In this document: one piece after another, positions 25,266 through 47,644 of the stretch | Layout: every line of letters starts with the position of its first letter | How positions within the stretch are numbered: the first letter of the stretch is position 1 | Assembly (NCBI GenBank): GCA_021730935.1 | Contig: JAKFYJ010000006.1 | Coordinates: 1 to 64,000, forward strand | Direction of reading: 5' to 3' | Length of the DNA: 64,000 nucleotides | DNA from: Elusimicrobiota bacterium | GTDB lineage: Bacteria > Elusimicrobiota > Elusimicrobia > 2-02-FULL-39-32 | Position numbers and translations under genes: made by a program | The notes under the pieces: model-generated | Seen by the model: only the letters and a program-made list of their open reading frames with translations | What the model was told of the DNA's origin: nothing | The model's database searches: none

Positions 25266-25330
25266 AGTATAAGGATATGCTGTAACGAATGTGTGTAAAT
25301 TTCGTAACAAATTTGTAACAATCTTGTAAC
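25266..25330 (-). promoter_or_regulatory. 11-bp-phased GTTAC repeat array plus -10 (TATACT), reading toward 25176
   Basis: +strand gtaac at 25326, 25315, 25304 and 25282 with a degenerate site at 25293; N10; agtata (25266-25271) = TATACT on minus strand. Confidence 0.75.
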
Positions 25331-25381
25331 AGGGAATTTGCAGGTTTTAAGGAGCCAGCGCGCCCAATGGTATCCAATCTC

Positions 25382-25519
25382 TCATCCCCCGAAGAACATC
25401 GTGAGGATGCTGGGCGCAAGCGTGACGAGCGCCAGCAGGAAAACTGCCGTCAAAGTCGGCCCCCAATTTCGTAACAGCGTCTCTGAATTTATTTCTATTT
25501 TTTTGTTTCCCAGGTTCAT
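25382..25519 (-). CDS. 45-aa predicted single-TM small protein
   Basis: MNLGNKKIEINSETLLRNWGPTLTAVFLLALVTLAPSILTMFFGG*; AAGGGGG Shine-Dalgarno-like sequence just upstream; below the ORF-track length cutoff. Confidence 0.55.
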   Translation of the reverse strand: MNLGNKKIEINSETLLRNWGPTLTAVFLLALVTLAPSILTMFFGG

Positions 25520-25585
25520 CTGCGCGTCCCCCTTTTGTTATTTTATAGTCGATAACCGCTTTGCCGCCGCGATAAAAATTGCCCA

Positions 25586-25614
25586 TTGACAATTCCCGGA
25601 TGTGCTGTTATATT
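25586..25614 (+). promoter_or_regulatory. Predicted sigma70-type promoter toward histidine kinase 25721
   Basis: TTGACA (25586-25591), 17-bp spacer, TATATT (25609-25614). Confidence 0.65.
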
Positions 25615-25663
25615 TCTGAAAGCAATTTGTAACAAGGCCTTTTTCATGGGTTCAATTACTTTA

Positions 25664-25717: not shown

Positions 25718-25720
25718 TTT

Positions 25721-27148
25721 ATGAAGCTCTGGTTCAAAGTCGCCTTCGCTTCGACAGCCCTGGTTTTGATCACCCTGGTGGCGGTCGGAGGCCTCTTGTT
25801 TTTCGCGGAAAAACGGCACCTCCTTTCCAACCAGTTGGAACAGCAGAAAGACTCCATCAACAACTTCGCCCAGGTCTGCGTGGAATCCGCGGCCGAGCAA
25901 AACGACATTATCCTCATTAATTATGTCCTTTCGCTCTCCAAAGCCCCCGGATTTCGATATGCCTATTTCCTCGATTCTCAAGGCAAGTTCGTTGCACACA
26001 ATGATCCTGCCAAACTGGGCCAAGTCACCCCCGATTCCAGGGCCCGCGCCACCAATGTCACGGAGTTCGTGAAACAGACCATTGTGGACAATGTTGAGGA
26101 AGTGATGACGCCGGTCGTTTATCAAGGAAAAAAAATCGGCGTGGCGGTGGTGGGTTATGACCAGAATTATTTCAAAAAACAGGTGGATGAGACGGTGCGC
26201 GCCACCGTGAAGCGCTTTTCCTATGTGAGCCTCATCGCCAACATCTTTGGTATTTTGGGGAGCATCATTTTCGCGCGCGGCGTCACCAAGCCTCTCGCGG
26301 AACTAACCAAAGCCACGCAGGAGATCGGCAAAGGCGAGCTCGGGCACCGCATCCCCATCAACGGCCAGGACGAGATCGGCGCCCTCGGGAAATCGTTCAA
26401 CGACATGGCGCAGAAACTGGAACAGCTGGACCAGATGAAAAACGATTTCGTCTCAAGCGTTTCTCACGAACTCCGTTCCCCGCTCACCGCGCTCAAAGGG
26501 TTCCTGCAGATGTTCCAGATGGGGCTGACCGGGCCCATGAACGACATGCAGAAAGAAAACCTCACGCTGATGCTCCAGTGCACGGACCGCCTTGGACGGT
26601 TCGTCAACAACATTTTGGATGTCGCGAAACTCGAAGCCGGCATGATGGATTTCACGATCCAGCCTCTGGACCCGAGAGCCGTTGCCGCTGAAATCACTGC
26701 GCTTTTCCAGCCCCAGGCAACGTCGGAAAAAATTAGGGTTTATCTTGAGGCACCGCAGACGGTTTCCAATGTCCAGGCCGATTCCGACAAACTCCGCCAG
26801 GTCTTCACCAACCTCGTCAACAACGCCATGAAGTTCACGCCCGAAGGCGGCGAGATCAAGATCTGGATCAAGGAAGAGCTGAAGACGGTGAAGATGGGCG
26901 TCAGCGACACCGGCGTGGGCATCCCCGCCAACGAGCTCCCCAAACTCTTCAACAAATTTGAACAGGTGAAAGCCACCAAGGAAAAAGCGAAGGGCCACGG
27001 CACGGGCCTGGGACTCACCATCGTGAAGCAGATCGTCGAAGGGCTGGGCGGAAAAATCGGCGTTGAGAGCGTGATGGGCAAAGGCACCACATTTTATTTC
27101 GTCCTGAACAAATCCACCGAAAAGGAGCTCGCGGCATCCAACGCATGA
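25721..27148 (+). CDS. Sensor histidine kinase (periplasmic sensor, HAMP, HisKA, HATPase)
   Basis: SSVSHELRSPLTALKGFLQM, NLVNNAMKFTPEGG, DTGVGI, GTGLGLTIVKQIVEGLGG. Confidence 0.94.
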   Translation: MKLWFKVAFASTALVLITLVAVGGLLFFAEKRHLLSNQLEQQKDSINNFAQVCVESAAEQNDIILINYVLSLSKAPGFRYAYFLDSQGKFVAHNDPAKLGQVTPDSRARATNVTEFVKQTIVDNVEEVMTPVVYQGKKIGVAVVGYDQNYFKKQVDETVRATVKRFSYVSLIANIFGILGSIIFARGVTKPLAELTKATQEIGKGELGHRIPINGQDEIGALGKSFNDMAQKLEQLDQMKNDFVSSVSHELRSPLTALKGFLQMFQMGLTGPMNDMQKENLTLMLQCTDRLGRFVNNILDVAKLEAGMMDFTIQPLDPRAVAAEITALFQPQATSEKIRVYLEAPQTVSNVQADSDKLRQVFTNLVNNAMKFTPEGGEIKIWIKEELKTVKMGVSDTGVGIPANELPKLFNKFEQVKATKEKAKGHGTGLGLTIVKQIVEGLGGKIGVESVMGKGTTFYFVLNKSTEKELAASNA

Positions 27149-27846
27149 GCCCATCGAACGGCGCGAAAAAAGTTTTGGTCGTGTCCACGCACCAGCCCAC
27201 GATCAATGAATTTTCCAAAATTCTGGAGCGCGGCGATTATTCCGTCGAGGTGGTGCAGTCCGGAGAGCGGGCCCTTGAAAAAATCTGGAGCGTTCCCCCG
27301 GTTTTGCTCCTCCTCCACCTTGAGCTTGAGGGGATCAGCGGGCTGGACGTGGTCCGCATCCTGCGCCAGGACGCGCGCACGCGCTCGCTCCCCATCATCA
27401 CATTTTCGAACCAGCCCAACCAGGCCACGATCCTGACCGCGTTCAACCTTGAAGTGGACGATTATCTCTCGAAGCCTTATCACCCCGAGGAAGTCCATGC
27501 CCGGATCAAGGCGGTCCTCAACCGCAAGAGTTCGAACATTTACAGGCCCGAAGACGTGCTGAAAAAAGGTAACATAGAAATCGCGCTCGGGTCGCGCCGC
27601 GTGCTTTGCGACAACAAGGAAGTGAAGCTCACGCCGAAAGAATTTGATCTCCTGACTTTGCTCCTGCGCAAAGAGGGCCGCGCTCTGGCCCGGACCTATC
27701 TTCTGGAAGCGATTTGGAACATGACGAGCAATGTGACCACCCGGTCGGTGGACATGCTGGTGGCGCGCCTGCGGAAAAAACTAAAAAAGGACGGAAGTCT
27801 CATTGAGACTGTGTCAGGTTATGGCTATAGAATCCCTGCAGAATAA
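27145..27846 (+). CDS. OmpR/PhoB-family response regulator with degenerate receiver (pseudo-receiver)
   Basis: Winged-helix C-terminus (VKLTPKEFDLLTLLLRKEGRALAR...SVDMLVARLRKKL...GYGYRI); receiver has VLVVSTH and LLLLHLELEG in place of VDD and LLD. Confidence 0.9.
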   Translation: MSPSNGAKKVLVVSTHQPTINEFSKILERGDYSVEVVQSGERALEKIWSVPPVLLLLHLELEGISGLDVVRILRQDARTRSLPIITFSNQPNQATILTAFNLEVDDYLSKPYHPEEVHARIKAVLNRKSSNIYRPEDVLKKGNIEIALGSRRVLCDNKEVKLTPKEFDLLTLLLRKEGRALARTYLLEAIWNMTSNVTTRSVDMLVARLRKKLKKDGSLIETVSGYGYRIPAE

Positions 27847-28216
27847 AAAGAGAATCCTGATCGTTGAGGACGATTTTGCCCTCCGGAGCATGCTGGCGCT
27901 CCTGATGCAAAGTCTTGGATATGAAGTGTTCCAGGAGGAAAACGGCGGCGCGGCCGTCCAGAAAATTCTGGACCTCCGCCCCGACATGATCCTGATGGAC
28001 GTGAACCTGCCCGGGATGAAGGGGACCGAGATCTGCGGGATCGTGAAAAAAGACGTGCGCGTCAAAGACATCCCCATCCTGATCATGACCGGCGAGTTCC
28101 GCGAGACCGACGACAAGCTCAGGGGTTTCATGCAGGGCGCCGACGATTACATTTTAAAACCCGTGGACATCAGCATCCTCTCGGCCCGGGTGAAGGCGAT
28201 GCTGGCGAACCGGTGA
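27821..28216 (+). CDS. Stand-alone receiver-domain response regulator
   Basis: RILIVEDDFALR, ILMDVNLPGMKG, ADDYILKPVD; start chosen at MAIESL. Confidence 0.9.
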   Translation: MAIESLQNKKRILIVEDDFALRSMLALLMQSLGYEVFQEENGGAAVQKILDLRPDMILMDVNLPGMKGTEICGIVKKDVRVKDIPILIMTGEFRETDDKLRGFMQGADDYILKPVDISILSARVKAMLANR

Positions 28217-28220
28217 GCGA

Positions 28221-28940
28221 ATGAAACACAAAATCGTTGTCGTTGAAGACGACCGCATCATTTCCCGCCTCGTGGTCCAGGCGCTGGAGAACGCGGGTTT
28301 TTTCGTCCAGACCGCTTTCGACGGCAAGGAAGGCATCAAGCTCATTGAGTCGGTGAAGCCCGACCTCGCCATCCTGGACTGGAACCTCCCCGAAGTCAAC
28401 GGCCTCCAGATCTGCCAATATCTGCGCTCCCACAGCACCATCGCAGGCACGGCCATTTTGATGCTCACCGCTTTCGGCACCATGTCCCAAAAAGTTTCCG
28501 CCTTTGAAACCGGCGCCGACGATTATCTCACCAAACCTTTCGACATCCAGGAGCTCATCGTGCGCGTCAAATCCCTCCTGCGCCGCGGGTCCGGAGGCCG
28601 CCCCGAAGTGGGCGACGTGATTTATGCCGGCATCATCGAAGTGGATGTCAAGGCCCACATGGTCAAGATCAAGGGCAAGGAAGTCCGCCTCCGCCCCAAA
28701 GAATTTGAGATCCTCAGCATCCTCCTCCGTTCCCCCGGCCGCGTCCTTTCCCGCCAGTTCCTCATGGAACGCGTCTGGGGCTATGACCCCAAACTCGTCA
28801 TGACCCACACCGTCGACACTCACATGGCCCGCCTGCGCGAACAGCTGGGCCCCGAAGCCTCCAAAATGATCGAAACGGTCCCCGGTTTCGGATACAAATT
28901 CGAACAGCGCGCCGGTGAAGACAAAAAACGCCTCAAATAA
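28221..28940 (+). CDS. OmpR/PhoB-family response regulator
   Basis: KIVVVEDDRIIS, AILDWNLPEVNG, YLTKPFD, winged helix VRLRPKEFEILSILLRSPGRVLSR...HMARLREQLG...GFGYKF. Confidence 0.94.
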   Translation: MKHKIVVVEDDRIISRLVVQALENAGFFVQTAFDGKEGIKLIESVKPDLAILDWNLPEVNGLQICQYLRSHSTIAGTAILMLTAFGTMSQKVSAFETGADDYLTKPFDIQELIVRVKSLLRRGSGGRPEVGDVIYAGIIEVDVKAHMVKIKGKEVRLRPKEFEILSILLRSPGRVLSRQFLMERVWGYDPKLVMTHTVDTHMARLREQLGPEASKMIETVPGFGYKFEQRAGEDKKRLK

Positions 28941-28954
28941 AAATTTTCATCAAA

Positions 28955-28997
28955 GTTACATTCCTGTAACAAAAATGTGATGTGCGCATGGTATATA
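28955..28997 (+). promoter_or_regulatory. 11-bp-phased repeat array plus -10 (TATATA) upstream of pseudopilin triad 1
   Basis: gttac 28955, gtaac 28966, gtgat 28977, N10, tatata 28992-28997. Confidence 0.65.
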
Positions 28998-29056
28998 TAA
29001 GAGAGGACCCTTGATATAAAAAGCGATTAAAATTCTGTGCGTTTTAAAATTCAGCC

Positions 29057-30439
29057 ATGAAAACAATCTTGCCGAACGGCGCAGTCAAAGTGCGATGCGG
29101 GGCGGCCCTGAGGAAGGGCTCTGCCTCCATCATGATCGTGCTCATGCTTTCGCTCCTGACCATCATCCCCGTCGCCATGATGATCTCCGGCAGAGCGCAT
29201 CAGGACACGGGGCTTGCCGTGCATGTTGCAGAGGCGGACAATGTCGCGCGTGCGGGCATCATTGACGCTCTCGCGTGGTTCCGGCGCGCCGGCGTGACAG
29301 GGACTGTCGGTGGCGGATATAACGGATCCGCCTTTTTCCCTCGGTTCAATGCAAATCCGGATATGCGCGACACTTTGGATGAAAATATCGGTCTCGTCAA
29401 GGAATATCAGCTGAACTCTCAAAAAAATCTTTGGGCTCGTTATGAGATCCGGAGACAGAAAGATCCTAATCTCGGTAGTGTCAATGCGGCGCTTCCAGTT
29501 GACGCGGCAACAAATCCTCCAAACCCCATTGATCCTCTTGCGGCTCACGACATCACCAACCTGCGGGCTTCTGCTTGGGATTTGGGTCAAGGAGTTGTAT
29601 GGGGCATTGAATCCAAGGGATATGTGTTTCAGAAAAACACTCTCGACCCCACAGTGGCCTTCAATAAAGCGCCCAATGTTGTTTTGGCCACTTCCAGAAT
29701 TTCCTCAGAGTTCCGCAGGTTATATATGGATGCGCCCTATAGTGAAATCGGGAACACCGGAGCCGGTCCAGCCGTCAATGCCGCTATCATCACCGACAAC
29801 GCGGATAATGTTCGGATCGATGGGCTTGGCCGAAGCATCATCCGAGGCGGCAATGTGCCCGCGATCGGATATTATACAGGCGCCGGAAATCCCACGATCA
29901 ACAATCCTGCTAATAAGGAAATCAGAGGGACGCCGACAAACCTCACATTCATTAACGGCGGATTTGATACGCGTTCAGTCGGGACAGGGCGCTTCAACAT
30001 GTGGGAGAATGTCTTTAAAGTTGAATTTCCCGATTCTTTGGTGCAGATGGCGGATGTGATCGCCAACACTGCGGTGGATCTCCCTCAGCTTTATCCAGCC
30101 ATGTCCTTGGTTTATATCAGGGGCAACGCGGATTTCACGCCCCAGCGTCCTCTCAACGGCAGCGGAATTCTTTTTGTGGGTGGGAACATGACCGTCACGG
30201 ATCCCAAGGCCAGGTTCGACGGACTCATTTGCGTCAATGGAAACTTTTCTATCACTGGAGTCGAATCTTCAATTTATGGCAGAATGATTGTCCGGGGGAC
30301 GGTCACAGTGACAGCCCCGAACGCCACCGACAAGGCAGAGATTGTTTATGACCCCGGAACGGTCACCTATGTCCGCAACCAAATTGCCGTATATCGCGAA
30401 ACCAAAACATCTGTATTTCTTTACACAGGTCTAAAATGA
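29057..30439 (+). CDS. PilX-like type IV pilus-associated protein (triad 1)
   Basis: KGSASIMIVLMLSLLTIIPVAMMISGRAHQDTGLAVHVAEADNVARAGIIDALAWFRR; paralog of 35431..36705. Confidence 0.65.
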   Translation: MKTILPNGAVKVRCGAALRKGSASIMIVLMLSLLTIIPVAMMISGRAHQDTGLAVHVAEADNVARAGIIDALAWFRRAGVTGTVGGGYNGSAFFPRFNANPDMRDTLDENIGLVKEYQLNSQKNLWARYEIRRQKDPNLGSVNAALPVDAATNPPNPIDPLAAHDITNLRASAWDLGQGVVWGIESKGYVFQKNTLDPTVAFNKAPNVVLATSRISSEFRRLYMDAPYSEIGNTGAGPAVNAAIITDNADNVRIDGLGRSIIRGGNVPAIGYYTGAGNPTINNPANKEIRGTPTNLTFINGGFDTRSVGTGRFNMWENVFKVEFPDSLVQMADVIANTAVDLPQLYPAMSLVYIRGNADFTPQRPLNGSGILFVGGNMTVTDPKARFDGLICVNGNFSITGVESSIYGRMIVRGTVTVTAPNATDKAEIVYDPGTVTYVRNQIAVYRETKTSVFLYTGLK

Positions 30440-33400
30440 TTAATAACAGAGAATCCGGATTCAGTCTCATGGAAGTGATCGTGGCCATGACCATCCTCCT
30501 GTTCGTCGGGTTTGCCGTGATGAGTTCCTTTCAATCTCTTAAAATGAGTTCAGTCAGCAATCAGGACAAAATTTTTGCGTCTCAAAAAGTGATCCAGATG
30601 ATGGAGGAACTGCGCTCCGTTGCCGTTGCGGCCAGCACCAATCTCACCCAGCTGGACAAATACGCCGACGGCGGCGGCGTGAAGAACAAAGTGCTCACCA
30701 CGCTTGCAGGGGTGAAACCTGAAGACAATCTGAGCGGGAATGCCGGCGGCAGATATTACAGGCAGATCGTCATCGCCAAAATTCCTTCCGATGTCCGTTC
30801 CCGCCGCGTCGAAGTCCGGGTTTTCCTCACCCAGACCGACGAAGTGTTGTCCGAAGGCATCAGCGTCCTCAAGTCCCTGGCTTCCCAGGACATTCCCAAC
30901 CAGGTTTTTGATCTATATGTCCTCAACATCTCCAACAGCCAGAGTTCCTGGGAAAGGCCCGGAGCCCTGGCCGATTTCAACAATTTCATTCTGGACCTGA
31001 ACATCCGAAACCCCGGTCTCGAGATCCGTCCTCATGTGATCACCCGCCTGGCCTATGGCCGCGACCCTTATTATTCCCCTTTCATCAACAACAACCACAC
31101 CGCGGACGACCCTCTGCTCGTCAACAATCCTGTCCTGGGAGTTTATTGGTATCCGGGACGGCTGGACGCGAACAACGCTTATTATGACTCCAACATTTTC
31201 CCAGGCAGGCATTTAAAAGAAAGGTTTCCAATTCCAGCGCCCAACACGGATCCTTATCAGGAACTGGTTCCGCCCAATCCCATATCGGGTCCTGATTATG
31301 TTGCGGGCGTCGGCGTTTCCCCTTTGACCCTCGAACAAGGAGGTTCTGTCGCGGATCAGTTCAACCATGCCGTGCGTTATCCGGATGAAGATCGGCTTTT
31401 TTTAGCGGCCACGAACAGGGCTGATTTTCTCAAGATTCCCAGACCCGAGCCGAGTCTCATGATGATTTTAAATCAGTTGAACATACAGCCCAACGCTTAT
31501 AGAAACGCGATATTCGTCAACCTGCACGGCAACACGCTCCCTCTCCCCCCCATGCGCAACTATTCCGATCCCGCGAAGGACCCTGTCCTCTTCCCCAATG
31601 TCCGCGTGGTGACTCATCCGGAGAGAATTTGGTATGACTCGAATGATACTGCTGATTACAACGATAGAGTGAGACTTCGAGTTTACTCCTATGTCACTAA
31701 TCCCGATGATCCGTTTTGGGGTATTAATCACGATGACGATTTTATTAGTCCCATCTCAATTGTTCTTTCAAACGCGGATAATGAACTTATACCAGCTAAT
31801 CGAATTACAATAAGCAAATACTCTGGAGATTCCGGCACTGCGTATACATTTGGCGGAGCAGACGATGCGGATATTGCAGGAGGGGCGGATGATTTTAGAG
31901 TCCGCGTAAATTTCCCAAGTCCGGGAAAAACCACCATCACTCTTTATAATAGTCACTTGTTCACTCCCAAAAATTTGTTAACTAAGGGTGGCCTTAGGAT
32001 TGCGGATCGGCTCTATGGATTGGAGTATATCCCCTGTACCTTAAATCCGTATAATGCAAATTCTCCTGGTAGAGATTTTTTGGCATTCAGTCCTGGAAAT
32101 GGAGGACTAACTATAAATAATCCCAACGATAATCCCAAGAACACGGCTCGATGGGAGATTAGATTGAATGTCAGCGGACTTTCCAATAATGGCCGGAAAA
32201 TGTACACCATCGAAACGCGAATCGGCGATGTGGTGGCTGATCCCGGGAATATCGGTTTGAACACAGGCGTTGCCGGAAACAAACCGGAGAATCTTTCGCG
32301 CACTTATGTATGGGTTGGAGTTCAGCCTCCCTTCACAGAACAATTCCAATTCATGGGCGACCCGCGCTATATGCCCTATGCGGACATCAAGGCCGCAGGC
32401 GGATATAACCGATATTTTCTGTCCGGCGGCTTGAACGGAAATGGCAATTGGCCCGGATTTAATCTTGCGGAAAAACATTGGTCCTTTGATGGCGCCAACA
32501 CGAAAACAAAACTCAACATCGATCTCCCGGCTTTTTTCAGGGTCTTCAGAAACGGCATCATCGGCTCCCATGCCATCTGGAGCCAATTCAAGGATCTGCC
32601 TTTCGAATATGTTTCCCTGGGCGGCGACATTCCCAGCATGAGATTCACGGCCTATAACCTCCAACAGCTTCCCTGGCGGCCCGGAATGGGCGTTGGAACG
32701 ATTAAAGTGTTTGAAATGGCGCACGATGATGTGTCTGTGGCCTTGACAGGAACAAGGGATTTTCCACCGGATCCCATAACAGGGATTGTCCCCCCGCGGC
32801 CCGTCATCAACCCCGCCATTCCGGCGGATGAAAGAAATTTGCGTTTGATCGCGCGCGCGGCTCCCTTTTGGTGGAGCAACATCTGGCTGGGCGAACTTTA
32901 TCCTGATGATGTTTTCAGCGTGGGTCCGAATAATCCGAACGAAATGAACGATTGGAAGGAAACTGGGAACCTTCCGGTCGGTCCCGGAAATTTCGTCCGC
33001 GCCGCATACAGCAACCTGACCGGAGGCCCTGTCACCGCGTTGAACCTCGACAACGATGCGGCCAACAATCGTTTGACCTTGCATCCCAGAGACAGGACTT
33101 TGACATCATTTTTTAATGGTGGAATAGCTTATGACATTGATTCCATCAATGCCCGGATTGATTGGGGTGTGGCGCCGTTTGACGGAACCCAGATGGGCAA
33201 CCAATTCAAATATGCGCTCCCGATCCAGTTCACTCAGCCTGTGAACTATGGTCCAAATGTTCTTCCCCCTCTTGAATTTAATAATAATCCCTATAATGAC
33301 CGCACGACAATCAATCGAATCAATTGTTTTTATATGCCGAATCCTCCAGGGTCCCAGGTGATGTCCGTGGCAAACTATCGTTTTCAAATCGGCAACAATG

Positions 33401-34044
33401 CGGATGTTGACGCGGGACTCATGTTTTTGGGCGCGGAAACGTCGTTCGCCATGGATAACCGCGACAGATACAGAATTCTCGTTCCTGGTCTTATCTATTC
33501 GTTCATGGAAATGGGAATGCCGAATGGCGGGGTTCTGCCCGCCCAACCGCCTGTCAGTCGTTTCTCTCAACTCCCGAGAGTCAGTCTGCAAACACCTCTG
33601 GGGTCTGTGGACATAACCGACACGGACATCAACAAGGTGAGGATTACCTGGGACGCCTTCTGGTCCAATTGGGAAGGAAACAAATACACCCTGAACTGGC
33701 CGAACTGGGTCAATGGAGCGCCCGCTGTCAACTTTCCAAACGACCCCATTGCATTTCAGATTCTCTATACCATGGACAACGGCAGGAACTGGCATTATAT
33801 ACAGGACCCCCCGAACGCCGCTCCGGCTCGCCTCGGCGAACGGACGGGAACCAAAGATGTTGTTCCCATTCCTGCAAACTTGCCCGTTCTCACTTTTGAC
33901 TGGGACCTCACCGTCGCGGCGGATGTCAACAATCCCGTGAAATATCCTTCGGGAAGCTATATCCTTCGTCTGGAATGTTTTAACCTCCTTCACCCAAATC
34001 AGCATTATTCTTACAACACCCGCCACATTCAGATCAAACGCTAG
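30436..34044 (+). CDS. Giant (1202 aa) PilV-like protein with prepilin N-terminal methylation motif (triad 1)
   Basis: ESGFSLMEVIVAMTILLFVGFAVMSSF prepilin signature followed by about 1170 aa of unassigned sequence. Confidence 0.75.
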   Translation: MINNRESGFSLMEVIVAMTILLFVGFAVMSSFQSLKMSSVSNQDKIFASQKVIQMMEELRSVAVAASTNLTQLDKYADGGGVKNKVLTTLAGVKPEDNLSGNAGGRYYRQIVIAKIPSDVRSRRVEVRVFLTQTDEVLSEGISVLKSLASQDIPNQVFDLYVLNISNSQSSWERPGALADFNNFILDLNIRNPGLEIRPHVITRLAYGRDPYYSPFINNNHTADDPLLVNNPVLGVYWYPGRLDANNAYYDSNIFPGRHLKERFPIPAPNTDPYQELVPPNPISGPDYVAGVGVSPLTLEQGGSVADQFNHAVRYPDEDRLFLAATNRADFLKIPRPEPSLMMILNQLNIQPNAYRNAIFVNLHGNTLPLPPMRNYSDPAKDPVLFPNVRVVTHPERIWYDSNDTADYNDRVRLRVYSYVTNPDDPFWGINHDDDFISPISIVLSNADNELIPANRITISKYSGDSGTAYTFGGADDADIAGGADDFRVRVNFPSPGKTTITLYNSHLFTPKNLLTKGGLRIADRLYGLEYIPCTLNPYNANSPGRDFLAFSPGNGGLTINNPNDNPKNTARWEIRLNVSGLSNNGRKMYTIETRIGDVVADPGNIGLNTGVAGNKPENLSRTYVWVGVQPPFTEQFQFMGDPRYMPYADIKAAGGYNRYFLSGGLNGNGNWPGFNLAEKHWSFDGANTKTKLNIDLPAFFRVFRNGIIGSHAIWSQFKDLPFEYVSLGGDIPSMRFTAYNLQQLPWRPGMGVGTIKVFEMAHDDVSVALTGTRDFPPDPITGIVPPRPVINPAIPADERNLRLIARAAPFWWSNIWLGELYPDDVFSVGPNNPNEMNDWKETGNLPVGPGNFVRAAYSNLTGGPVTALNLDNDAANNRLTLHPRDRTLTSFFNGGIAYDIDSINARIDWGVAPFDGTQMGNQFKYALPIQFTQPVNYGPNVLPPLEFNNNPYNDRTTINRINCFYMPNPPGSQVMSVANYRFQIGNNADVDAGLMFLGAETSFAMDNRDRYRILVPGLIYSFMEMGMPNGGVLPAQPPVSRFSQLPRVSLQTPLGSVDITDTDINKVRITWDAFWSNWEGNKYTLNWPNWVNGAPAVNFPNDPIAFQILYTMDNGRNWHYIQDPPNAAPARLGERTGTKDVVPIPANLPVLTFDWDLTVAADVNNPVKYPSGSYILRLECFNLLHPNQHYSYNTRHIQIKR

Positions 34045-35045: not shown

Positions 35046-35060
35046 CCCGACGACAGGAGG

Positions 35061-35315
35061 TTGAAGGCGCTGCTGCCTCAAGCCAAGACTTATGCCAGGA
35101 ACCACGGGCATTCTCTGTCTCAACTGATTGAAAACTCGCTGAGGGAGATGAGCCATTCGGAGGACATCCCATTTTCCAAAAGATGGAGCGGGAAATTCAA
35201 GGAAGCCGCAAAACAGACCGCGCGCTATAAGTCTTTGGGAAAGCGGTATCTTTATTCTCCGATCCCTGCCCGAACCCCGGAATCCGTCCTGAAACTGCTC
35301 CAAACCCCCTTGTAA
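35061..35315 (+). pseudogene. N-terminally truncated DUF6364-like (ribbon-helix-helix antitoxin-type) remnant
   Basis: QAKTYARNHGHSLSQLIENSLREM motif; only a TTG start, in-frame stop 18 bp upstream, expected N-terminal strand missing. Confidence 0.4.
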
Positions 35316-35354
35316 TTTCCCCGTTTTGGGGGTATATTTCCTTCAAGGCATTTC

Positions 35355-35392
35355 GTTACAATTCTGTTACTTTTCTGTAACTTTTGTGTGAG
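35355..35392 (+). promoter_or_regulatory. 11-bp-phased repeat array upstream of pseudopilin triad 2
   Basis: gttac 35355, gttac 35366, gtaac 35377, gtgtg 35388; -10 at the expected position is poor. Confidence 0.6.
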
Positions 35393-35430
35393 GACTTTGC
35401 AACATTGATCTGTTAAAGTTGTAAGAGCTC

Positions 35431-39700: not shown

Positions 39701-40046
39701 CAGCCTCAATTTCGTCTGGACCTCTTCCTGGACCCGCTGGGACAACCAGCCCTATACCTCTTCCTATCCCTCAAATTTCTCCGAAGGCATTCCTCTCGTC
39801 TTCAACGTCAAATATTCCAAAGACAACGGCAAAACCTGGAATTTTATCCAGGACGACGCCGCGGCAAAACCGGGAATTCTGGACAGCGGAGCCTCACACG
39901 CCGTCTCCGCCTATGGATACACCTGGGACGTCTCCAACAGCGCGCAATTCCCCGCCGGGACCTATGACGTCCGCGTCGAGGCGTATCGGACGAACCGGGC
40001 GCTCCACTATGCGTATCAACAGATCCACATGTATTTTCAGCGATGA
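36702..40046 (+). CDS. Giant (1114 aa) PilV-like protein with prepilin motif (triad 2)
   Basis: DRGFSLVEVVVTMSILLFVGLAIMNNFQSLSKAKSG; co-linear homology to 30436..34044 (e.g. NPGLEIRTHVISRLAYGRDPYYSPYIN). Confidence 0.75.
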   Translation: MKNIFSSGEENLMKQDRGFSLVEVVVTMSILLFVGLAIMNNFQSLSKAKSGDFDKTFASEKVIQMIEELRGVASTSKSVDPLDAYNDGNVQNLVLTTLAGVTDPGHPLSGNSNQFYTRNILITTVPNEPDVRKVSARVYLASSKKLLAEAVSIIRSLASKNVPTQVFDLYFIQIENVQAQWAAWPRTTKRDYDTVIQDLQNRNPGLEIRTHVISRLAYGRDPYYSPYINYAVRSDNLNPSDMRVYYYPGFCTNPFDNQPSLIYQPSGVSAKYNWDGVVSKPGPAFASYLDPLLRNTQGDSIADIYNHAVRYPEEERLFALAAAAAENAGLPAPEMSLRMLLEKMSSSPAELQNAMIVNFHGNTLPVPPMRNYSDAAKIPDNHPYVRAVTHPERIKYDLPGNKVKLRVYTYVTNPNDAQWTDHNIALSSFTIVLSTALNPANVSIRKSTGNSFIDYAWQDTNQGGVVDYIVGTDYKHNVTTITVFNSPLFTPEYSSSGRGLKTSRQLYGQEYIPCPVDNTFSYFDPTADFRESGKNLTYAGDIPKNTARWVITLGGGAGMPSLAKGMYTIDTRIGRDTTAGLSGGNQPTNLSRTFVWVGQEVPGSEMIQFMGDPRHMPYADLKSFGLYNQFFTAADLSAQGYENFKIFPASWFNGYNNVLNMDVPRFFMLYRTALQKTESIFNNPATQAFAYLQAGGEIGDVNTRLTPWRPNDNAASGSVREISAPTGSSYSPAESYNRLIARDGANFWYSRFWLGELYPDSEYKDWWQTTGNLPVGSEKYYRALYRKLTGGAVTSQSDLDPADSPATVPANNTRPASMADTRGSASFFNGGKIANSYFSHFSPASGNPANYGDLTTPGLNMAKDFNSVLPSFMDAPRPFRPDDVTAGGYPPEFSTVTYSNVTQRTTLLTFRTVYETRSLEGSHDSSAVIRMSTNTGLMGSVIVSGINGSSAGSQNVTKLSAIELIHTFLDLGLADDSRTPQIPLVAITSPTAVTDFNNPSSLNFVWTSSWTRWDNQPYTSSYPSNFSEGIPLVFNVKYSKDNGKTWNFIQDDAAAKPGILDSGASHAVSAYGYTWDVSNSAQFPAGTYDVRVEAYRTNRALHYAYQQIHMYFQR

Positions 40047-41044
40047 CCCCGCGCGCGACTCCCCAGGCCGGATTCACTCTCGTCGAGATGCTTCTCAGCG
40101 TCACCCTGATGGCCATGATGATCGCCATGGTGGGCCCCATGATCAACCTGACCCGTTCCGGAACGGTCCAATATGAAGCGCACATGCAGATCAAGACCGC
40201 GGCCCAGAAAACCATGAACAAAATCCAGCATCGCCTCGTGGAGTGCAAGCGGCTTTTTCAGGGCACCGCGCCGGACATCCTGTTCCAGATGCGCTGGTCT
40301 CCGGACGGCCAGCCCGAACCCATCAGCGGAAGCGTCCTCCCCGTCATCCAGCCCAACGGGTCTCTTGCGGATCCTTCGGCCCTAAGCGGATCCACCGGCA
40401 ACATGCTTTTCCTCGCGTCTCTGGGCGTGCCTGAAGACCTCAGCGTCCTGAACGGTTCGGGCGTGTCAGAAAACCTCAGGATCGACAATTATCGTTTCTG
40501 TTTTTATTATGTCGGCGCGGGTTCCGGAAAACTGGTCGGCGACAAATTCAACCGGACGCTGTGGGAATGGGAGAGCGTCGCGTATGCCGATTACAGCGCG
40601 ATCATGGCGATCAGCGACACTGCGAAAAGGCTCAACGCGGTCAGCGCATTGATGAACAAAGGTTTTTTATACGCCTGCGACCTTTCCACTGTGACGGCGG
40701 CCGGCGCTTTTTATCTCCTGAACTCCACCGGGACCCTGAGCCCCCAGATATATCACATGATCGTGCGGGATTCCGGGGGCCCGATTGCCGCCATGGGAAA
40801 CATGACCGGGTCCTATAGCTACGGCGTTTCTCCCAACACGGGCGGAACTTTCACTCCCAAGGATTCTGTCCCAAAATTCGCGACAGCGAGCGGTGAATTT
40901 CCGTCGGGATTCGAAGTCCTCGTCACGGGAGTTTCCGGCTCGCGGCAAGTGGTGGCCCGTCTCGTCATGGCGGCTTCCTCCGGCATCACCCGAAGCGTTT
41001 CCTACGAACAGATGATCTACGCCACCGTCCACGACGTCTGGTAA
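40043..41044 (+). CDS. PilW/GspJ-like prepilin-type protein (triad 2)
   Basis: QAGFTLVEMLLSVTLMAMMIAMVGPMINLTRSGTVQYEAHMQIKTAAQKTMNK; paralog of 34044..35045. Confidence 0.75.
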   Translation: MTPRATPQAGFTLVEMLLSVTLMAMMIAMVGPMINLTRSGTVQYEAHMQIKTAAQKTMNKIQHRLVECKRLFQGTAPDILFQMRWSPDGQPEPISGSVLPVIQPNGSLADPSALSGSTGNMLFLASLGVPEDLSVLNGSGVSENLRIDNYRFCFYYVGAGSGKLVGDKFNRTLWEWESVAYADYSAIMAISDTAKRLNAVSALMNKGFLYACDLSTVTAAGAFYLLNSTGTLSPQIYHMIVRDSGGPIAAMGNMTGSYSYGVSPNTGGTFTPKDSVPKFATASGEFPSGFEVLVTGVSGSRQVVARLVMAASSGITRSVSYEQMIYATVHDVW

Positions 41045-41083
41045 ACCCTCCCCCAACCCCTCCGTCCAAAAGTCACATTAATT

Positions 41084-41137
41084 TTTACATTTCGTTTACA
41101 TCCCTGTAACTTAATTTCAAGCCATACCCTTTATACT
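41084..41137 (+). promoter_or_regulatory. 11-bp-phased TTTAC/GTAAC array plus -10 (TATACT)
   Basis: tttac 41084, tttac 41095, gtaac 41106, degenerate 41117, N10, tatact 41132-41137. Confidence 0.8.
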
Positions 41138-41143
41138 CATAGT

Positions 41144-42091
41144 ATGAAAACGAGATTGCAGGTTATCCTCTTCACCGCCTCTCTCATAAGCTCAGCCGCG
41201 CTGAATGCGGCGCAGACCGGCGGAGCCTTCCTCAAGATCGATCCTTCCGCCCGGAGCTATGCCCTGGGCCAGAGCGGGGCGGTCGCGGCGCTTGGAGCGG
41301 AATCCATCGGGACCAACCCCGCCAATTTAATGGATATGAGCCGCAAAATGGAGCTCATGTCGGCTTATTCCAGCATCAGCGAAGACGTCTCCTATGCCCA
41401 CATTGCCGGCGCCGTCAACCGTTCCATGAACAAGAACCTTCTCGTGGACGCCATCGGCTTCTCTTATACAAGGCTTTCGGTCGGCGGCATCGACGGCAGA
41501 GATTCCGGCGGAAACAAGACGGCGGATTTCGGAAGCGTGGACAGCCAGATGTCCATGAGCCTGAGCGGAAACGCCGGGAAAATGAAATTGGGACTCACGG
41601 GGAAAGTGGTGCAGAGCAAGATCGGGGAATATAAAGCCAACACGGCGTTTGCGGGCGATTTCGGGATGAGCTGGGGGTTCCGTTCTCTGGGCAGAAATAT
41701 TACAGCCGGCGCGAGCGTTTCCAATTTTGGACAGGGCATCAAATATATCAACCAGAAAGATGCCTTGCCCACGACCCTGAACCTGGGCTTGGGAACGGCC
41801 GTGGGGCCCCTGAATCTCATGGGAGGCCTGAAACAGGAATTTAACGGCAAAACAGCGATGAACATGGGCGTGGAATTCAACGCGGGCATGGTTTCCCTGA
41901 GGGCCGGAATGAACGCGCTCAGCGGAAACAAAGGCAACAAAACCTCGAACGGCTTCGACGGATTGTCGAGCGGCGTGGGGTTCAGGATCGGGAACACAAG
42001 AATGGATTATGCCATCGGCCAGGCCAGCGCGGATTTGGGCGTCACCCAAAGATTAAGTTTGACCTTGCAATTTGGAAGAAAACCTGAATAA
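41144..42091 (+). CDS. PorV/PorQ-like outer-membrane protein
   Basis: GGAFLKIDPSARSYALGQSGAVAALGAESIGTNPANLMDMSRKMELMSAYSSI; C-terminal LTLQFGRKPE. Confidence 0.8.
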   Translation: MKTRLQVILFTASLISSAALNAAQTGGAFLKIDPSARSYALGQSGAVAALGAESIGTNPANLMDMSRKMELMSAYSSISEDVSYAHIAGAVNRSMNKNLLVDAIGFSYTRLSVGGIDGRDSGGNKTADFGSVDSQMSMSLSGNAGKMKLGLTGKVVQSKIGEYKANTAFAGDFGMSWGFRSLGRNITAGASVSNFGQGIKYINQKDALPTTLNLGLGTAVGPLNLMGGLKQEFNGKTAMNMGVEFNAGMVSLRAGMNALSGNKGNKTSNGFDGLSSGVGFRIGNTRMDYAIGQASADLGVTQRLSLTLQFGRKPE

Positions 42092-42103
42092 TTACATAGG
42101 CCT

Positions 42104-42499
42104 GTGAAAAATATCGTGGAGGAGAAAAACATGAAACCGAAATATTCAAGAATCGTCGCTGAAGCCATGGTCCCCGCTCTGATTTTATTTGCCGCCTGCA
42201 CCTTCAAGGCCATGGCCCTCTGGGCGTCCGACTCTTCCATCCGGGTCTATCCCAACCCCTGGCGCGCTGGCCAAAATGCCCCCCGATCGGTCACCCTGGA
42301 CAATCTGCCCCTCAACAGCACGGTCAAAATCCTGTCCCTGGCGGGAGACCCCGTAAAAACCCTTTCCGTCCCCGGGGGCTCGGCTTCCTGGGACCTGACC
42401 AATGAGGCAGGAAACAGCGTTACTTCAGGCGTTTATGTCTATGTCGCCAAATCCGAAGGAAACCAGGTTTTTAGAGGCAAAATCGCCGTTATTCGTTAA
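42104..42499 (+). CDS. Short secreted protein: signal/TM segment plus FlgD/T9SS-like C-terminal domain only
   Basis: SIRVYPNPWRAGQNAPRSVTLDNLPLNSTVKILSLAGDPVKTLSVPGGSASWDLTNEAGNSVTSGVYVYVAKSEGNQVFRGKIAVIR. Confidence 0.75.
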   Translation: MKNIVEEKNMKPKYSRIVAEAMVPALILFAACTFKAMALWASDSSIRVYPNPWRAGQNAPRSVTLDNLPLNSTVKILSLAGDPVKTLSVPGGSASWDLTNEAGNSVTSGVYVYVAKSEGNQVFRGKIAVIR

Positions 42500-42603
42500 T
42501 ACTCTCCTCCCTTCCCCTGTAAACCTTTGTAAAACCATGTAAAGGCGTCCTTGTGGTTCCCCCTTTTTAGGGGTACCCTTGGGGTGTCATGGCATCCAAA
42601 ACT

Positions 42604-42657
42604 TTTACATTTTGTTTACATCCCTGTAACTTAATTTCAAGACCCGTCCTTTATAAT
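42604..42657 (+). promoter_or_regulatory. 11-bp-phased TTTAC/GTAAC array plus -10 (TATAAT)
   Basis: tttac 42604, tttac 42615, gtaac 42626, degenerate 42637, N10, tataat 42652-42657. Confidence 0.82.
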
Positions 42658-42663
42658 CAGGGT

Positions 42664-43605
42664 ATGAAAAACAAAATGAAACTCCAGCTGATCGCGGCAC
42701 TGGTCCTCAGCTCAGCGTCCCTGAACGCGGCCGTGAGCGGCGGATCCTTTTTGAAGATCGATCCTTCAGCGAGAAGCTATGCCCTGGGCCAGAGCGGAGC
42801 GGTTGCGGCGCTCGGAGCGGAAGCCATGGGAACGAACCCCGCCAATTTAATGAACATGAGCCGAAAGATGGAAGTGATGTCGGCATATTCCAGCCTGAGC
42901 GAAGGCGTGTCTTATGGCCACATCGCGGGAGCCATAAACAGATCCGTGAACAAAAATCTTCTGGTGGACGCCATCGGCTTCTCTTATACGCGGCTTTCAG
43001 TCGGCGGCATTGACGGCAGAGATTCTTCAGGGAACAAGACCTCAGATTTCGGATCGGACGACAGCCAGATGTCGATGAGCATGAGCGGGAACATCGGGAA
43101 GATGAAAGTGGGAGTGACTGGGAAAGTGGTGCAGAGTAAGATCGGGGAATATAAAGCCAATACAGCGTTTGCGGGCGATTTCGGGATGAGCTGGGGATTT
43201 CGTTCTCTCGGCAGAAACATCACGGCGGGCGCGAGCCTCTCAAATTTTGGACAGGGCATCAAATATATCAACCAGAAAGATGCTTTGCCCACGAGCATGA
43301 ACCTTGGACTCGGAACCGAAGTGGGCCCCTTGAACCTGTTGGGAGGGCTCAAACAAGAACTGAACGGCAAGATGGCGATGAACATGGGATTGGAATTCAA
43401 CGCGGGACTGGTTTCTCTGAGAGCGGGCATGAACGCATTGGGCGGAGCGAAGGGGAGCAAAGGCGGATTCGACGGGCTCTCCAGCGGCGTGGGATTTCGG
43501 ATCGGGAACTCGAGGATGGATTATGCGGTGGGCCAGTCTTCATCAGATTTGGGCATCAGCCATAGATTAAGTTTGACTCTCCAGTTCGGCAAGAAGGCGG
43601 AATAA
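42664..43605 (+). CDS. PorV/PorQ-like outer-membrane protein (start re-assigned to MKNKMKLQ)
   Basis: GGSFLKIDPSARSYALGQSGAVAALGAEAMGTNPANLMNMSRKMEVMSAYSSL; the longer ORF start at 42589 lies upstream of the -10 box. Confidence 0.82.
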   Translation: MKNKMKLQLIAALVLSSASLNAAVSGGSFLKIDPSARSYALGQSGAVAALGAEAMGTNPANLMNMSRKMEVMSAYSSLSEGVSYGHIAGAINRSVNKNLLVDAIGFSYTRLSVGGIDGRDSSGNKTSDFGSDDSQMSMSMSGNIGKMKVGVTGKVVQSKIGEYKANTAFAGDFGMSWGFRSLGRNITAGASLSNFGQGIKYINQKDALPTSMNLGLGTEVGPLNLLGGLKQELNGKMAMNMGLEFNAGLVSLRAGMNALGGAKGSKGGFDGLSSGVGFRIGNSRMDYAVGQSSSDLGISHRLSLTLQFGKKAE

Positions 43606-43607
43606 AC

Positions 43608-46544
43608 ATGAGAAAAATGTCAAACATAGGGACATATGCCGCGGCGTTTTTGTTGTCTGTGTCAACCCCTGTCCCATGCCTTATGGCTGCAGTTCATTCC
43701 ACTGACATCATCTATCAGGACAACCTGCAGTATGAAGGCGCTTTCAGGGTGCCTGTGGGAGATTTCGGCGGGCCGCAATTTCACGGATTTAATTATGGAG
43801 GCACGGCCTTGGGATATAATCCCGCGGCGAACACGCTTTATCTCATGGGCCATGATTCTGACCAACTGATGGCGGAAATCACAATTCCCGGACTGGTCAA
43901 CAGCAAAAATTTAAATGCCTTAAACAGAGCGTCGGTCGTGAAAGGTTTGGTGGACGCAACGGAAGGCAAACTACCCCTCATCAACCCCGGCGATATTAAC
44001 GGGATGAAAGTCGGCGGCATCCTTCCATATAACGGCAAACTATATTTTTCCGCTTATGCCTATTACGACGGAAACGCTACCCAAATTAACACCCATTTCG
44101 TGAGGCCTCTGGATTTGAGCGTAAACGGCCAGACGGTCGGACCTCTCCGGGTGGGCACAGTCAAAGCGGGGCTCATCGCAGGATACATGACTCCGATCCC
44201 GGCTGAATGGCAGGCGGACTTTGGCGGCCCGGCTCTCACCGGACTCTGCTGCATTTCAATCATTGGGAGAACTTCCGAAGGCCCATCGGCCTTCGCCTTT
44301 GATCCGGCCCAGTTGGAGTCTGTGTCTCCTGTCCCGGCAAACCCGCTTTTATATTACCCCATCAATCACGCAAACCTTGGGAACTGGGACAATGTTGCCA
44401 CCGTGAACCTGGGATTCAATATGAGCACGAGCGTCAAAGGCATCGTATTCCCGAAAGCGACCAGGAGCGTCCTGTTCTTCGGCGCCACCGGAACAGGCGT
44501 TCCCTGTTACGGGCCCGGCACAAGCGACCCAAGCAAACACGGTGAACCGGCTCTGGACATAGGAGACACCGCTGACGACTGGTGTTATGACCCCGCCGAC
44601 AACAGCAAAGGGACTCACGCGTATCCCTATATTTATCAGGTCTGGGCTTATGACGCAAACGATTTCGCCGCCGTCAAAAGCGGGCAGAAAAATCCGTGGG
44701 ACATTTACCCTTATGCTCTTTGGAGCCTCGATCTTATGCCCGTGAGCGGCAGAACTCTCGGCGGCGCGGCCTACGATCCTTCGACGGACCGCATCTATGT
44801 ATCTCAGCAATTCGCAGACGGGTCCATGCCCGTCATCCATTCACTCAAAGTCAATGTCGGCGCAAACGCGCCTCCCCTCGACGGCACGGCTCCCGCGGTG
44901 GCCATGAAAAATCCCTCAGACGGCGCCACGGTCTCCAGGGTTATCAATTTAGAAGCCACTGCGACAGACAATGTCGGCATCACCGATGTCGAATATTTTC
45001 TGGACGGAGCCAGCTTTGCTCATGCTTATGTCGGAGTTCCGTTTCCCCACTTATGGGACACTCGTTTGATCGCGAACGGTGTTCACACTCTTTATTCCGT
45101 CGCCAGGGACATGGCTGGAAATTCAAAACAATCTGCAGCGATCATGGTGACGGTCAACAATACTGATAATGTCAAACCTACCGTTTCCATCTCTCTCCCC
45201 GCCAGGAACGCCACCGTTACCCGGAACACCGTCCTGCTTGCAGACGCGTCGGACAACGTCGGGATCGCGGGGGTCAAATTTGTGCTGAACAATTCCGTCA
45301 TCGGTTCCGAAGTCACTTCGGCTCCATTCTCCATGAACTTTGATTTCACGCCGTATGCTAAAGGGAGCTATAACCTCACTGCGGTCGCCAGAGACGCGGT
45401 CGGAAATATTTCGTCATATATGATCGCCATCAACGTCGACAATTCCGTCAATGCCGCGCCTCCCTCAGTTTCCGTCACGGCTCCTTCTGCCAATGCCTCA
45501 ATCACCAGTTCCACTATCGTCACAGCCGCCGCTTCCGACGCCATCGGCGTGGCGGGCGTGCAGTTCAAGGTGGACGGCGCGAATCTAGGGGCTGAGGACC
45601 AGACTTTTCCATACTCGGTCATATGGTTTTCAACGGCGGGCATCAATGGAACCCATCTCCTGACCGCGGTTGCGCGCAATTCTGTCGGGCTCTCCGCCCT
45701 TTCCGCTTCCGTGACCGTAAAAGCAGATAATGTCGTCACCTCCACCACCGTGGCTGGCGGGGTTTCCATCTCCACTGGAAGCAACAATGGCAATAACGGG
45801 AATCCTGGAGGCAACAGCGGCAATTCCGGAAACTCCGGGAACTCCGGCGGGACCACCACCGTCACCGTCAATCCCCCCATTTTCCGCAAAGGCAACATGG
45901 CTGTCGCCGTCGATTCCGGCACCGGCAAAGCGGACATGGTTGAGCTTCCCTCAGACTTAACGAGAAAAACCGCTCTCCTGAGGAAAAATCTCATGCTCCT
46001 TGGAAGCGAAGTGGAGTTCACGATGTCTTCGGGGACTCTGGCTTCTGCGACGATTTATGTCCCCTTCGACGCTTCGCTGATTCCCGCGGGATACACGACC
46101 GCCAATGTGCGGGTGGCTTATTACAATCCCTCCACAGGCCTCTGGGAAATCCAGGACAATGTCTCTGTTCAGGGCGCCCAGCTTCTCTGCACGGTTCCTC
46201 ACTTTTCGATTTATGCTCCCGTGCTGGTCAAACCTGCGTCGGCTCCGGAACTCCAGGAAATCTATGTGTTCCCGAACCCGACCGTCGGTTCTGACAACCC
46301 CACGATCCGCGTCAAGATGGGCCAGGTGGACACGGTGGAAGTGGACATTTATGATTTGTCCGGAGCCAAAGTTCACAGCGCGAGTTTCTCCGGAGAGTCC
46401 CCCCAGATCGGTTCAGACGCGCAATTTTATTATGACTATGCCTGGACAGAAGAAAAAGCCAGCGGCGTCTATATCGCCGCCGTCAAAGGCAAAACAGCAT
46501 CAACCACCGTCAAAGCCAAGGTCAAATTCGCCGTCGTCAGATAA
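43608..46544 (+). CDS. Large modular secreted protein: N-terminal unassigned domain, three bacterial Ig-like repeats, Gly/Asn linker, FlgD/T9SS-like C-terminal domain
   Basis: Repeats APAVAMKNPSDGATVSR.../KPTVSISLPARNATVTR.../PPSVSVTAPSANASITS...; C-term EIYVFPNPTVGSDNPTIRVKMG...ASGVYIAAVKGKTASTTVKAKVKFAVVR. Confidence 0.8.
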   Translation: MRKMSNIGTYAAAFLLSVSTPVPCLMAAVHSTDIIYQDNLQYEGAFRVPVGDFGGPQFHGFNYGGTALGYNPAANTLYLMGHDSDQLMAEITIPGLVNSKNLNALNRASVVKGLVDATEGKLPLINPGDINGMKVGGILPYNGKLYFSAYAYYDGNATQINTHFVRPLDLSVNGQTVGPLRVGTVKAGLIAGYMTPIPAEWQADFGGPALTGLCCISIIGRTSEGPSAFAFDPAQLESVSPVPANPLLYYPINHANLGNWDNVATVNLGFNMSTSVKGIVFPKATRSVLFFGATGTGVPCYGPGTSDPSKHGEPALDIGDTADDWCYDPADNSKGTHAYPYIYQVWAYDANDFAAVKSGQKNPWDIYPYALWSLDLMPVSGRTLGGAAYDPSTDRIYVSQQFADGSMPVIHSLKVNVGANAPPLDGTAPAVAMKNPSDGATVSRVINLEATATDNVGITDVEYFLDGASFAHAYVGVPFPHLWDTRLIANGVHTLYSVARDMAGNSKQSAAIMVTVNNTDNVKPTVSISLPARNATVTRNTVLLADASDNVGIAGVKFVLNNSVIGSEVTSAPFSMNFDFTPYAKGSYNLTAVARDAVGNISSYMIAINVDNSVNAAPPSVSVTAPSANASITSSTIVTAAASDAIGVAGVQFKVDGANLGAEDQTFPYSVIWFSTAGINGTHLLTAVARNSVGLSALSASVTVKADNVVTSTTVAGGVSISTGSNNGNNGNPGGNSGNSGNSGNSGGTTTVTVNPPIFRKGNMAVAVDSGTGKADMVELPSDLTRKTALLRKNLMLLGSEVEFTMSSGTLASATIYVPFDASLIPAGYTTANVRVAYYNPSTGLWEIQDNVSVQGAQLLCTVPHFSIYAPVLVKPASAPELQEIYVFPNPTVGSDNPTIRVKMGQVDTVEVDIYDLSGAKVHSASFSGESPQIGSDAQFYYDYAWTEEKASGVYIAAVKGKTASTTVKAKVKFAVVR
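45781..45857 (+). repeat. Low-complexity Asn/Gly/Ser linker repeat (GNSGNSGNSGG type)
   Basis: aacagcggcaattccggaaactccgggaactccggc in the coding frame. Confidence 0.85.
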
Positions 46545-46640
46545 TCCCTCCCCCTGTAAACCCTTGTAAAGGCATGTAAAGGCGCTCTTGCGGTTCCCCC
46601 CTTTCGGGGTTACCCTTGGGATGTCATGGCATTCAAAACT

Positions 46641-46694
46641 TTTACATTTTGTTTACATCCCTGTAACTTAATTTCAAGCTTGACCCTTTATAAT
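46641..46694 (+). promoter_or_regulatory. 11-bp-phased TTTAC/GTAAC array plus -10 (TATAAT)
   Basis: tttac 46641, tttac 46652, gtaac 46663, degenerate 46674, N10, tataat 46689-46694. Confidence 0.82.
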
Positions 46695-46700
46695 CATAGT

Positions 46701-47642: not shown

Positions 47643-47644
47643 AC

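Follow-up and report, generated by a model that had tools for sequence, protein, structure and literature searches.

Phased 11-bp promoter arrays around a two-component locus of an Elusimicrobiota bacterium: two array classes predicted to serve surface and secretion genes

Introduction

The PHO box consists of 11-nt direct-repeat units to which PhoB is bound in tandem (PMC4415409), and in promoters of the PHO type the distance between the box and the core promoter is strictly kept (PMC10294691). The present work describes seven arrays of 11-bp-phased pentamers (P1-P7) found in a 64,000-nt stretch of DNA from an Elusimicrobiota bacterium (assembly GCA_021730935.1, contig JAKFYJ010000006.1, positions 1 to 64,000), hereafter called the window. 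The arrays surround a two-component locus encoding two OmpR/PhoB-type proteins, designated, like other genes of the window, by coordinate (27145 and 28221).

The arrays resemble the PHO box and the class-II promoters of PhoB in Escherichia coli, as well as the PhoP boxes of Bacillus and Streptomyces, in their head-to-tail 11-nt units, association with OmpR/PhoB-type regulators, strict core spacing, and variable number and conservation of units (PMC4415409, PMC10294691). Unlike the PHO box, they usually contain four or five units, have GTTAC instead of GTCAC, and precede surface and secretion genes, while a separate GTCAC set is present at pstS. In the phoA promoter of E. coli, 10 nt separate the last GTCAC from TATAGT.

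Another related system is HP1043 (HsrA) of Helicobacter pylori, an OmpR/PhoB-type regulator with a degenerate receiver. It binds a pair of direct repeats, with 11 bp between their centres, that lie directly upstream of the -10 element and replace the -35 element (PMC5253667, PMC8345958). It resembles the role proposed below for 27145. At the same time, HP1043 is an essential orphan that uses TTTAAG boxes, whereas 27145 belongs to a kinase/receiver operon and is linked here with GTTAC-type arrays and surface targets. As for the targets, the PorXY-SigP system of Porphyromonas gingivalis provides two-component control of PorV-type and related secretion genes; PorX acts via SigP, an extracytoplasmic function sigma factor that itself binds to the promoters (PMC4800418), whereas in the window tandem operators abut a sigma-70-like -10 element. 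CmrRST of Clostridioides difficile is an atypical signalling locus that combines two regulators of the OmpR family (PMC12548384); this analogy concerns gene organisation only. Thus, the promoter architecture is of a known kind; new are the regulon, the lineage in which it occurs and the existence of parallel classes.

Results

Sequence, phase and spacing of the arrays

The source genome (G000; 2.7 Mb assembly, 95% complete) was analyzed together with its relatives as a set of nine genomes of the family (G000-G008) belonging to six genera. All of the arrays P1-P7 are inside the window, and class members located elsewhere are named by genome, contig and position. A preliminary description of this DNA had listed the pentamers of the seven arrays with their coordinates and strands and had placed them around one two-component locus. 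Every coordinate and strand was verified, and P1-P7 do flank the locus 25721-28940.

As had been described, the last phased unit is followed after exactly 10 nt (N10) by TATACT in P1, P2 and P5, TATATA in P3, and TATAAT in P6 and P7. P4 had been considered the only array without a good -10 element; its phase in fact continues to a fifth unit, GCAAC (35399), which is followed by N10 and TAAAGT, a weak -10 hexamer (4/6). Both features of OmpR/PhoB-type tandem operator-promoters are therefore present, namely, direct repeats with an 11-bp period (one helical turn) and a short, constant interval between the proximal repeat and a sigma-70-type -10 element, which is N10 in all seven arrays (with the weak -10 of P4) and N10 or N11 family-wide. 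The proposal that the arrays are tandem operators of this type with no -35 element is supported, binding itself being predicted from the sequence.

Two arrays are located on the minus strand. P1 (25266..25330) contains the boxes GTTAC/GTTAC/GTTAC/TACAC/GTTAC and lies upstream of the unit 25176-22482. P2 (25664..25717; GTTAC/GTTAC/TATAC/GTTAC) is divergent from the histidine kinase gene. The other five are on the plus strand. P3 (28944..28997; (TTTTC)/GTTAC/GTAAC/GTGAT) and P4 (35355..35419; GTTAC/GTTAC/GTAAC/GTGAG/GCAAC) precede the pseudopilin units 29057-35045 and 35431-41044, respectively. In P5 (41084..41137; TTTAC/TTTAC/GTAAC/TCAAG), P6 (42604..42657) and P7 (46641..46694), the -10 element is followed by the ATG at a distance of 6 nt (41137-41144, 42657-42664 and 46694-46701, respectively), and their transcripts are therefore predicted to be leaderless.

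All seven arrays are intergenic, and intergenic DNA makes up 4.5% of the window. P6 and P7 fall within an open reading frame (ORF) only when this is over-extended upstream; the fitting starts are 42664 and 46701. The arrays had been counted as seven. Since P6 and P7 are duplicates with 95.5% identity and P5 is 81% identical to both, P5-P7 are tandem duplicates and approximately five arrays are independent.

The pattern was compared with several controls. A search of the window for KTWAC-N6-KTWAC-N6-KTWAC with up to one mismatch, counted as strand-wise clusters, gave nine clusters, and none was found in 40 Markov-1 sequences of equal length. In the whole genome G000, the triple pattern had 55 matches and the reversed pattern 11. 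The pattern of four boxes, N10 and TAYANT with up to three mismatches had 67 matches in the nine genomes and none when reversed. According to the preliminary description, an array equally common inside coding regions would have spoken against its regulatory role. This was examined in approximately 313 kb of G000 sequence with a long-ORF content of 94%. Of the forward clusters, 35 fell between genes and 11 in long ORFs, two of the latter being P6 and P7, within the over-extended ORF only. Coding DNA thus does not carry the array equally often. Loci outside the window had been picked for carrying a match, which biases the number of clusters and leaves the coding/intergenic split unbiased. In addition, among 103 arrays from family loci, the first -10-like hexamer followed an in-phase box at N10 or N11 in 39/66 cases, and 43/66 such hexamers were in register classes 4 and 5 of 11.

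Promoter classes

Judging from the sequences, there are at least four promoter classes with the same grammar of 11-bp phasing and N10: A1, A2, B and a pst-linked class. The first two boxes are common to every class.

Class A1 has the consensus GTTAC-N6-GTTAC-N6-TATAC-type-N6-GTTAC-N10-TATACT and comprises 12 members. Five are in G000 (P1, P2, C11:42104, C16:30139 and C43:12376), and the others are in G001:C47 (two), G001:C41, G002:C96, G007:C74, G007:C109 and G007:C466. Class A2 follows the pattern KTTAC-N6-KTTAC-N4CT-GTAAC-N6-TCAA-type-N10 and includes P3 to P7 (P4 being A2-like) and an array in G001:C50. All five A2 matches of G000 are at 28944-46694, within 18 kb downstream of 28221. Box 3 thus differs systematically, TATAC-type in A1 versus GTAAC in A2, and A1 is dispersed and conserved, whereas A2 in G000 is confined to one locus.

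A position matrix trained on the 10 A1 arrays outside the window gave scores of 62 bits for P1, 58.5 bits for P2 and 6-21 for P3-P7, compared with 30-57 for left-out A1 members and 22-35 for class B sites. The seven arrays had been treated as one regulon. Because the A1 matrix separates P1 and P2 from P3-P7, which score below class B, they do not share one homogeneous motif and represent two classes, A1 and A2, and a single regulon for all seven was dropped as an explanation for the same reason.

Class B (GTTAC-AAAAAK-KTTAC-AAAAAG-TTTAG-type) was found in all nine genomes, with more than 25 sites in G000; its third box with the spacers (AAAAAG-TTTAG) is invariant. The G000 sites include C3:30664, C8:2398, C8:50497, C10:8363, C12:28695, C14:27181, C40:3139, C58:5582 and others (L004-L039), and the genes downstream encode mostly regulators, PorV-like proteins and secreted proteins of giant size. 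Class B arrays adjoin their own conserved C66-type regulator in five genomes, including G005; in several genera, the array is directly upstream of this response regulator gene.

The pst-linked class (TTTAC-GTCAC-GTCAC-N10-TAAAAT) is represented by the Pho-box-like array of pstS (L020:13213-13260, corresponding to G000:C6:63213-63260) and is kept in G002 (G002:C58). Two further GTCAC/TTTAC arrays of this kind (L020:5800-5860 and L020:11515-11560) are located upstream of two other genes. All three are near a gene for a PhoB-like regulator.

The two-component locus 25721-28940

All four genes of the locus are on the plus strand. The first (25721..27148) encodes a histidine kinase with sCache, HAMP, HisKA and HATPase domains, whose orthologs in G002 and G007 show 66% and 58% identity. 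Genes 27145 (27145..27846) and 28221 (28221..28940) both encode Response_reg and Trans_reg_C domains, and the linkage of the regulator gene to the sites is kept in G007. Between them, a gene missing from the preliminary description was identified. It encodes a stand-alone receiver with an intact acceptor Asp (27821..28216; PF00072, 83 bits; 83% identity in G002 and 58% in G007) and overlaps the end of 27145.

The protein 27145 had been taken for an ordinary response regulator. Its acceptor Asp is replaced by His in G000, G002 and G007, which represent two genera, so it cannot be an ordinary phosphorylated regulator and is a conserved pseudo-receiver. It contains LLLLHLELEG instead of LLLLDxxLPG, and the acidic pair is lost in G000 and G002 and degenerate in G007. 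This loss of both the phospho-acceptor Asp and the acidic pocket corresponds to that of HP1043/ChxR-type proteins. The recognition region of 27145, VTTRSVDMLVARLRKKLK, is identical in the three genomes. As for 28221, its receiver is intact, its ortholog in G007 shows 55% identity, and its recognition region in G000 differs from that in G007. Among named genomes, only distant regulators from many phyla were found for it, with identities of up to 43%. None of three regulators reaches the PhoB equivalog cut-off of 296.2: 28221 scored 202.6, 27145 scored 159.1 and the pst-linked regulator scored 241.9. The last of these forms a group of its own in the tree.

The operon of kinase, 27145 and receiver is present in 3/4 genomes with A1 and in 0/5 genomes without A1. 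A candidate for the same operon in G001:C125 was discarded, since according to tblastn the 476-aa neighbour is PorV-like and not a kinase. In G002:C6 (L210, 2430-2530), the receiver gene is followed by a run of N, beyond which lies a gene homologous to 49986 of the window. The interpretation that G002 does not have the segment 28221-49921 was dropped because of the run of N at the junction; judging by the position of the 49986 homolog, this segment may be variable.

Conservation of the promoters

The expected conservation in relatives was borne out, as G001, G002 and G007 also have A1 arrays in front of orthologs of the genes concerned. Orthologous P1 promoters are in G001:C47 and G007:C74. 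The genes under them are orthologs of the P1 operon, with identities in G001 of ~56-71% for 25176, 71% for 24838 and 60% for 23750, and in G007 of ~54-61%, 50% and 42%, respectively. A P2-like divergent A1 array is located upstream of the orthologous kinase gene in G007:C466, so that A1 adjoins the kinase operon in two genera. The C43 promoter has counterparts in G001 and G002; the protein encoded under it has 53 aa in G000 and 52 aa in G001. When the G000 and G001 versions are aligned on GAAAATTATACA, the former is longer by exactly 11 bp ahead of the -10 element, and N10 is kept in both. This conserved small protein adjoins a tRNA (L024:3454-3615, L172:9489-9647). The promoter-pattern scan of the nine genomes found A1 absent from G003-G006 and G008, and tblastn gave no match for the pseudopilin targets of P3 and P4 in the loci of relatives that were examined.

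Genes downstream of the arrays

According to the NCBIfam models (PorV_fam and Por_Secre_tail), the arrays precede PorV/PorQ family genes (24838 and 42664) and genes for cargo proteins with type A sorting domains of the type IX secretion system (25176, 43608 and 47645), all of them above the curated cut-offs. The P1 unit (25176-22482, minus strand) comprises three genes. The first encodes a 113-aa protein with a FlgD_ig and sorting domain (24835..25176; TIGR04183, 28.1 bits, cut-off 23), the second a PorV/PorQ protein (23756..24838; NF033709, 177.8 bits, cut-off 90), whose 71% ortholog is under A1 in G001, and the third (23750) a TPR protein. P2 precedes a gene for a 45-aa single-helix membrane microprotein (MNLGNKK...FFGG; 25382..25519, minus strand), and a similar 36-aa protein is encoded under the A1 array G001:C47:15600. 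In G001, the A1-driven microprotein gene is located just upstream of that of a 3412-aa FG-GAP/fn3/FlgD_ig protein. Giant secreted proteins are also encoded downstream of A1 at C11 (1292+ aa, fn3/G8) and C16 (1674+ aa, G8/beta-helix), and an fn3 protein in G007.

In the P3 and P4 units, N_methyl pilin motifs are found at the start of 30436 and 36702, which are large proteins, and of 40043. P6 is followed by the unit 42664..46544 (plus strand), encoding a PorV/PorQ protein (42664; NF033709, 120.2 bits, cut-off 90) and a 978-aa Ig-like (Big_7) protein with a C-terminal sorting domain (43608; TIGR04183, 25.5 bits, cut-off 23). The duplicate unit under P7 (46701..49921, plus strand) encodes a PorV/PorQ-like protein 98.4% identical to 42664 and a 758-aa PKD protein with a sorting domain (47645; TIGR04183, 30.0 bits, cut-off 23). 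The tandem duplication covers both the promoter and the PorV/PorQ-like gene (42508-43618 versus 46545-47655, 95.5% identical), with a third copy at 41080-42063 (81% identical).

The preliminary description had united these genes into one co-regulated surface system. PorV-like, sorting-domain, pseudopilin and small-ORF genes do lie downstream of the arrays, which supports their predicted control by them; a single system is supported only in part, given the two promoter classes.

Discussion

The arrays described here are probably operator-promoters for OmpR/PhoB-type regulators, with A1 as the regulon of the kinase operon, most likely read by 27145, and A2 as a local regulon whose most likely reader is 28221. 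Sequence, phase, spacing, conservation and gene content were observed directly, and from them we infer class-II activation by tandem regulators of this type, the pairing of proteins with DNA and the signal. With one regulator molecule per 11-bp unit, arranged head-to-tail, all of them would be on the same face of the helix. The gene-proximal unit, 10 nt upstream of the -10 element, occupies the place of the -35 element, and the bound regulator would therefore recruit the sigma-70-type RNA polymerase. A1 arrays (P1, P2 and three other sites in G000) would form a conserved regulon with the pseudo-receiver 27145 as reader, and A2 arrays (P3-P7) a local one with 28221 as reader. The predicted output of both comprises PorV/PorQ, sorting-domain, giant fn3/G8 and pseudopilin-like genes, that is, functions of the cell surface and secretion. 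Since 3 bp lie between the end of the P2 array and the ATG of the kinase gene, autoregulation of the kinase operon is plausible.

The protein 27145 is favoured as the reader of A1 because of the distribution of its operon among genomes with and without A1, and 28221 is favoured for A2 because all five A2 matches of G000 lie just downstream of it. By analogy, these pairings are also supported by the location of class B beside the C66-type regulator and of GTCAC boxes beside the pst regulator. Several observations weigh against them. The co-occurrence of 27145 and A1 comes from a small and phylogenetically confounded sample, and in G001, which has three A1 and one A2-type promoters, no 27145 ortholog was found in the 79%-complete assembly. 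The assembly gap in the G002 locus is exactly where 28221 is expected. The only clear A2 member beyond the window is G001:C50, and P3 and P4 are loose fits to A2. In addition, G000 encodes 10 Trans_reg_C proteins, and a regulator unlinked to the arrays may read them.

An alternative is that a single regulator, either 28221 or a heteromer of 27145 and 28221, reads all seven arrays with a loose preference, A1 and A2 being strong and weak versions of one site. The common period, N10, GTTAC-type boxes and first two boxes, together with the location of both genes in one operon, are compatible with it; since P3-P7 score lower than class B sites with the A1 matrix, box 3 differs systematically, and A2 is found at one locus versus the dispersed and conserved A1, we regard this alternative as rather unlikely. 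It is improbable that the C66-type regulator reads the arrays as divergent copies of its family-wide class B operators. Class B does represent the same family of sites genome-wide, has similar first two boxes, and likewise precedes genes for PorV-like and giant secreted proteins, but its third box and spacers are its own and invariant, A1 is present in none of the five genomes with B only, and the A1 matrix gives 58-62 for P1 and P2 versus 22-35 for B.

Ordinary Pho boxes read by a PhoB-like regulator, with the surface genes belonging to the phosphate regulon, would have the same architecture of 11-nt direct-repeat units bound in tandem (PMC4415409), and the genome does contain a PhoB-like regulator and a pst operon. 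Nevertheless, the box at the pst locus is different (GTCAC/TTTAC at N10) and kept in G002, and the PhoB-like group is present in G004, G005, G006 and G008, all without A1, which makes this explanation very improbable. A link to phosphate had been suggested earlier and is unlikely: pstS has GTCAC boxes versus GTTAC/GTAAC in A1 and A2, so no box is shared with the pst genes of the same genome, and because the separate pst locus carries its own boxes and PhoB-like regulator, phosphate is not an expected signal for A1 and A2. Finally, the phased pentamers could in principle have arisen by chance or from a periodic composition of the AT-rich intergenic DNA, as the boxes are short and AT-rich and the spacers are phased and A-tract-like. 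The absence of such clusters from the 40 shuffled windows, the 67 versus 0 matches with the reversed pattern and the conservation of orthologous promoters rule this out and leave it a negligible probability.

Within the preferred reading of A1 by 27145 and A2 by 28221, a more far-reaching scheme may be proposed tentatively, although we consider it more doubtful. The protein 27145 would be the direct master activator of the dispersed A1 surface regulon, tuned by the kinase and the stand-alone receiver without its own phosphorylation, and 28221 would have evolved an A2 code of its own for a pseudopilin/PorV segment acquired recently, as one of at least four parallel codes in the genome. As a conserved pseudo-receiver encoded in a kinase operon, 27145 also offers an example of how such a protein could function in this setting.

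Because the classes share a spacing grammar and differ in box sequence, the promoter set represents a natural test of specificity divergence among paralogous regulators of the OmpR family. For this uncultured family, the regulation of which is almost uncharted, the arrays provide a readable promoter code that ties orphan surface proteins, PorV/PorQ proteins and giant secreted proteins into predicted regulons.

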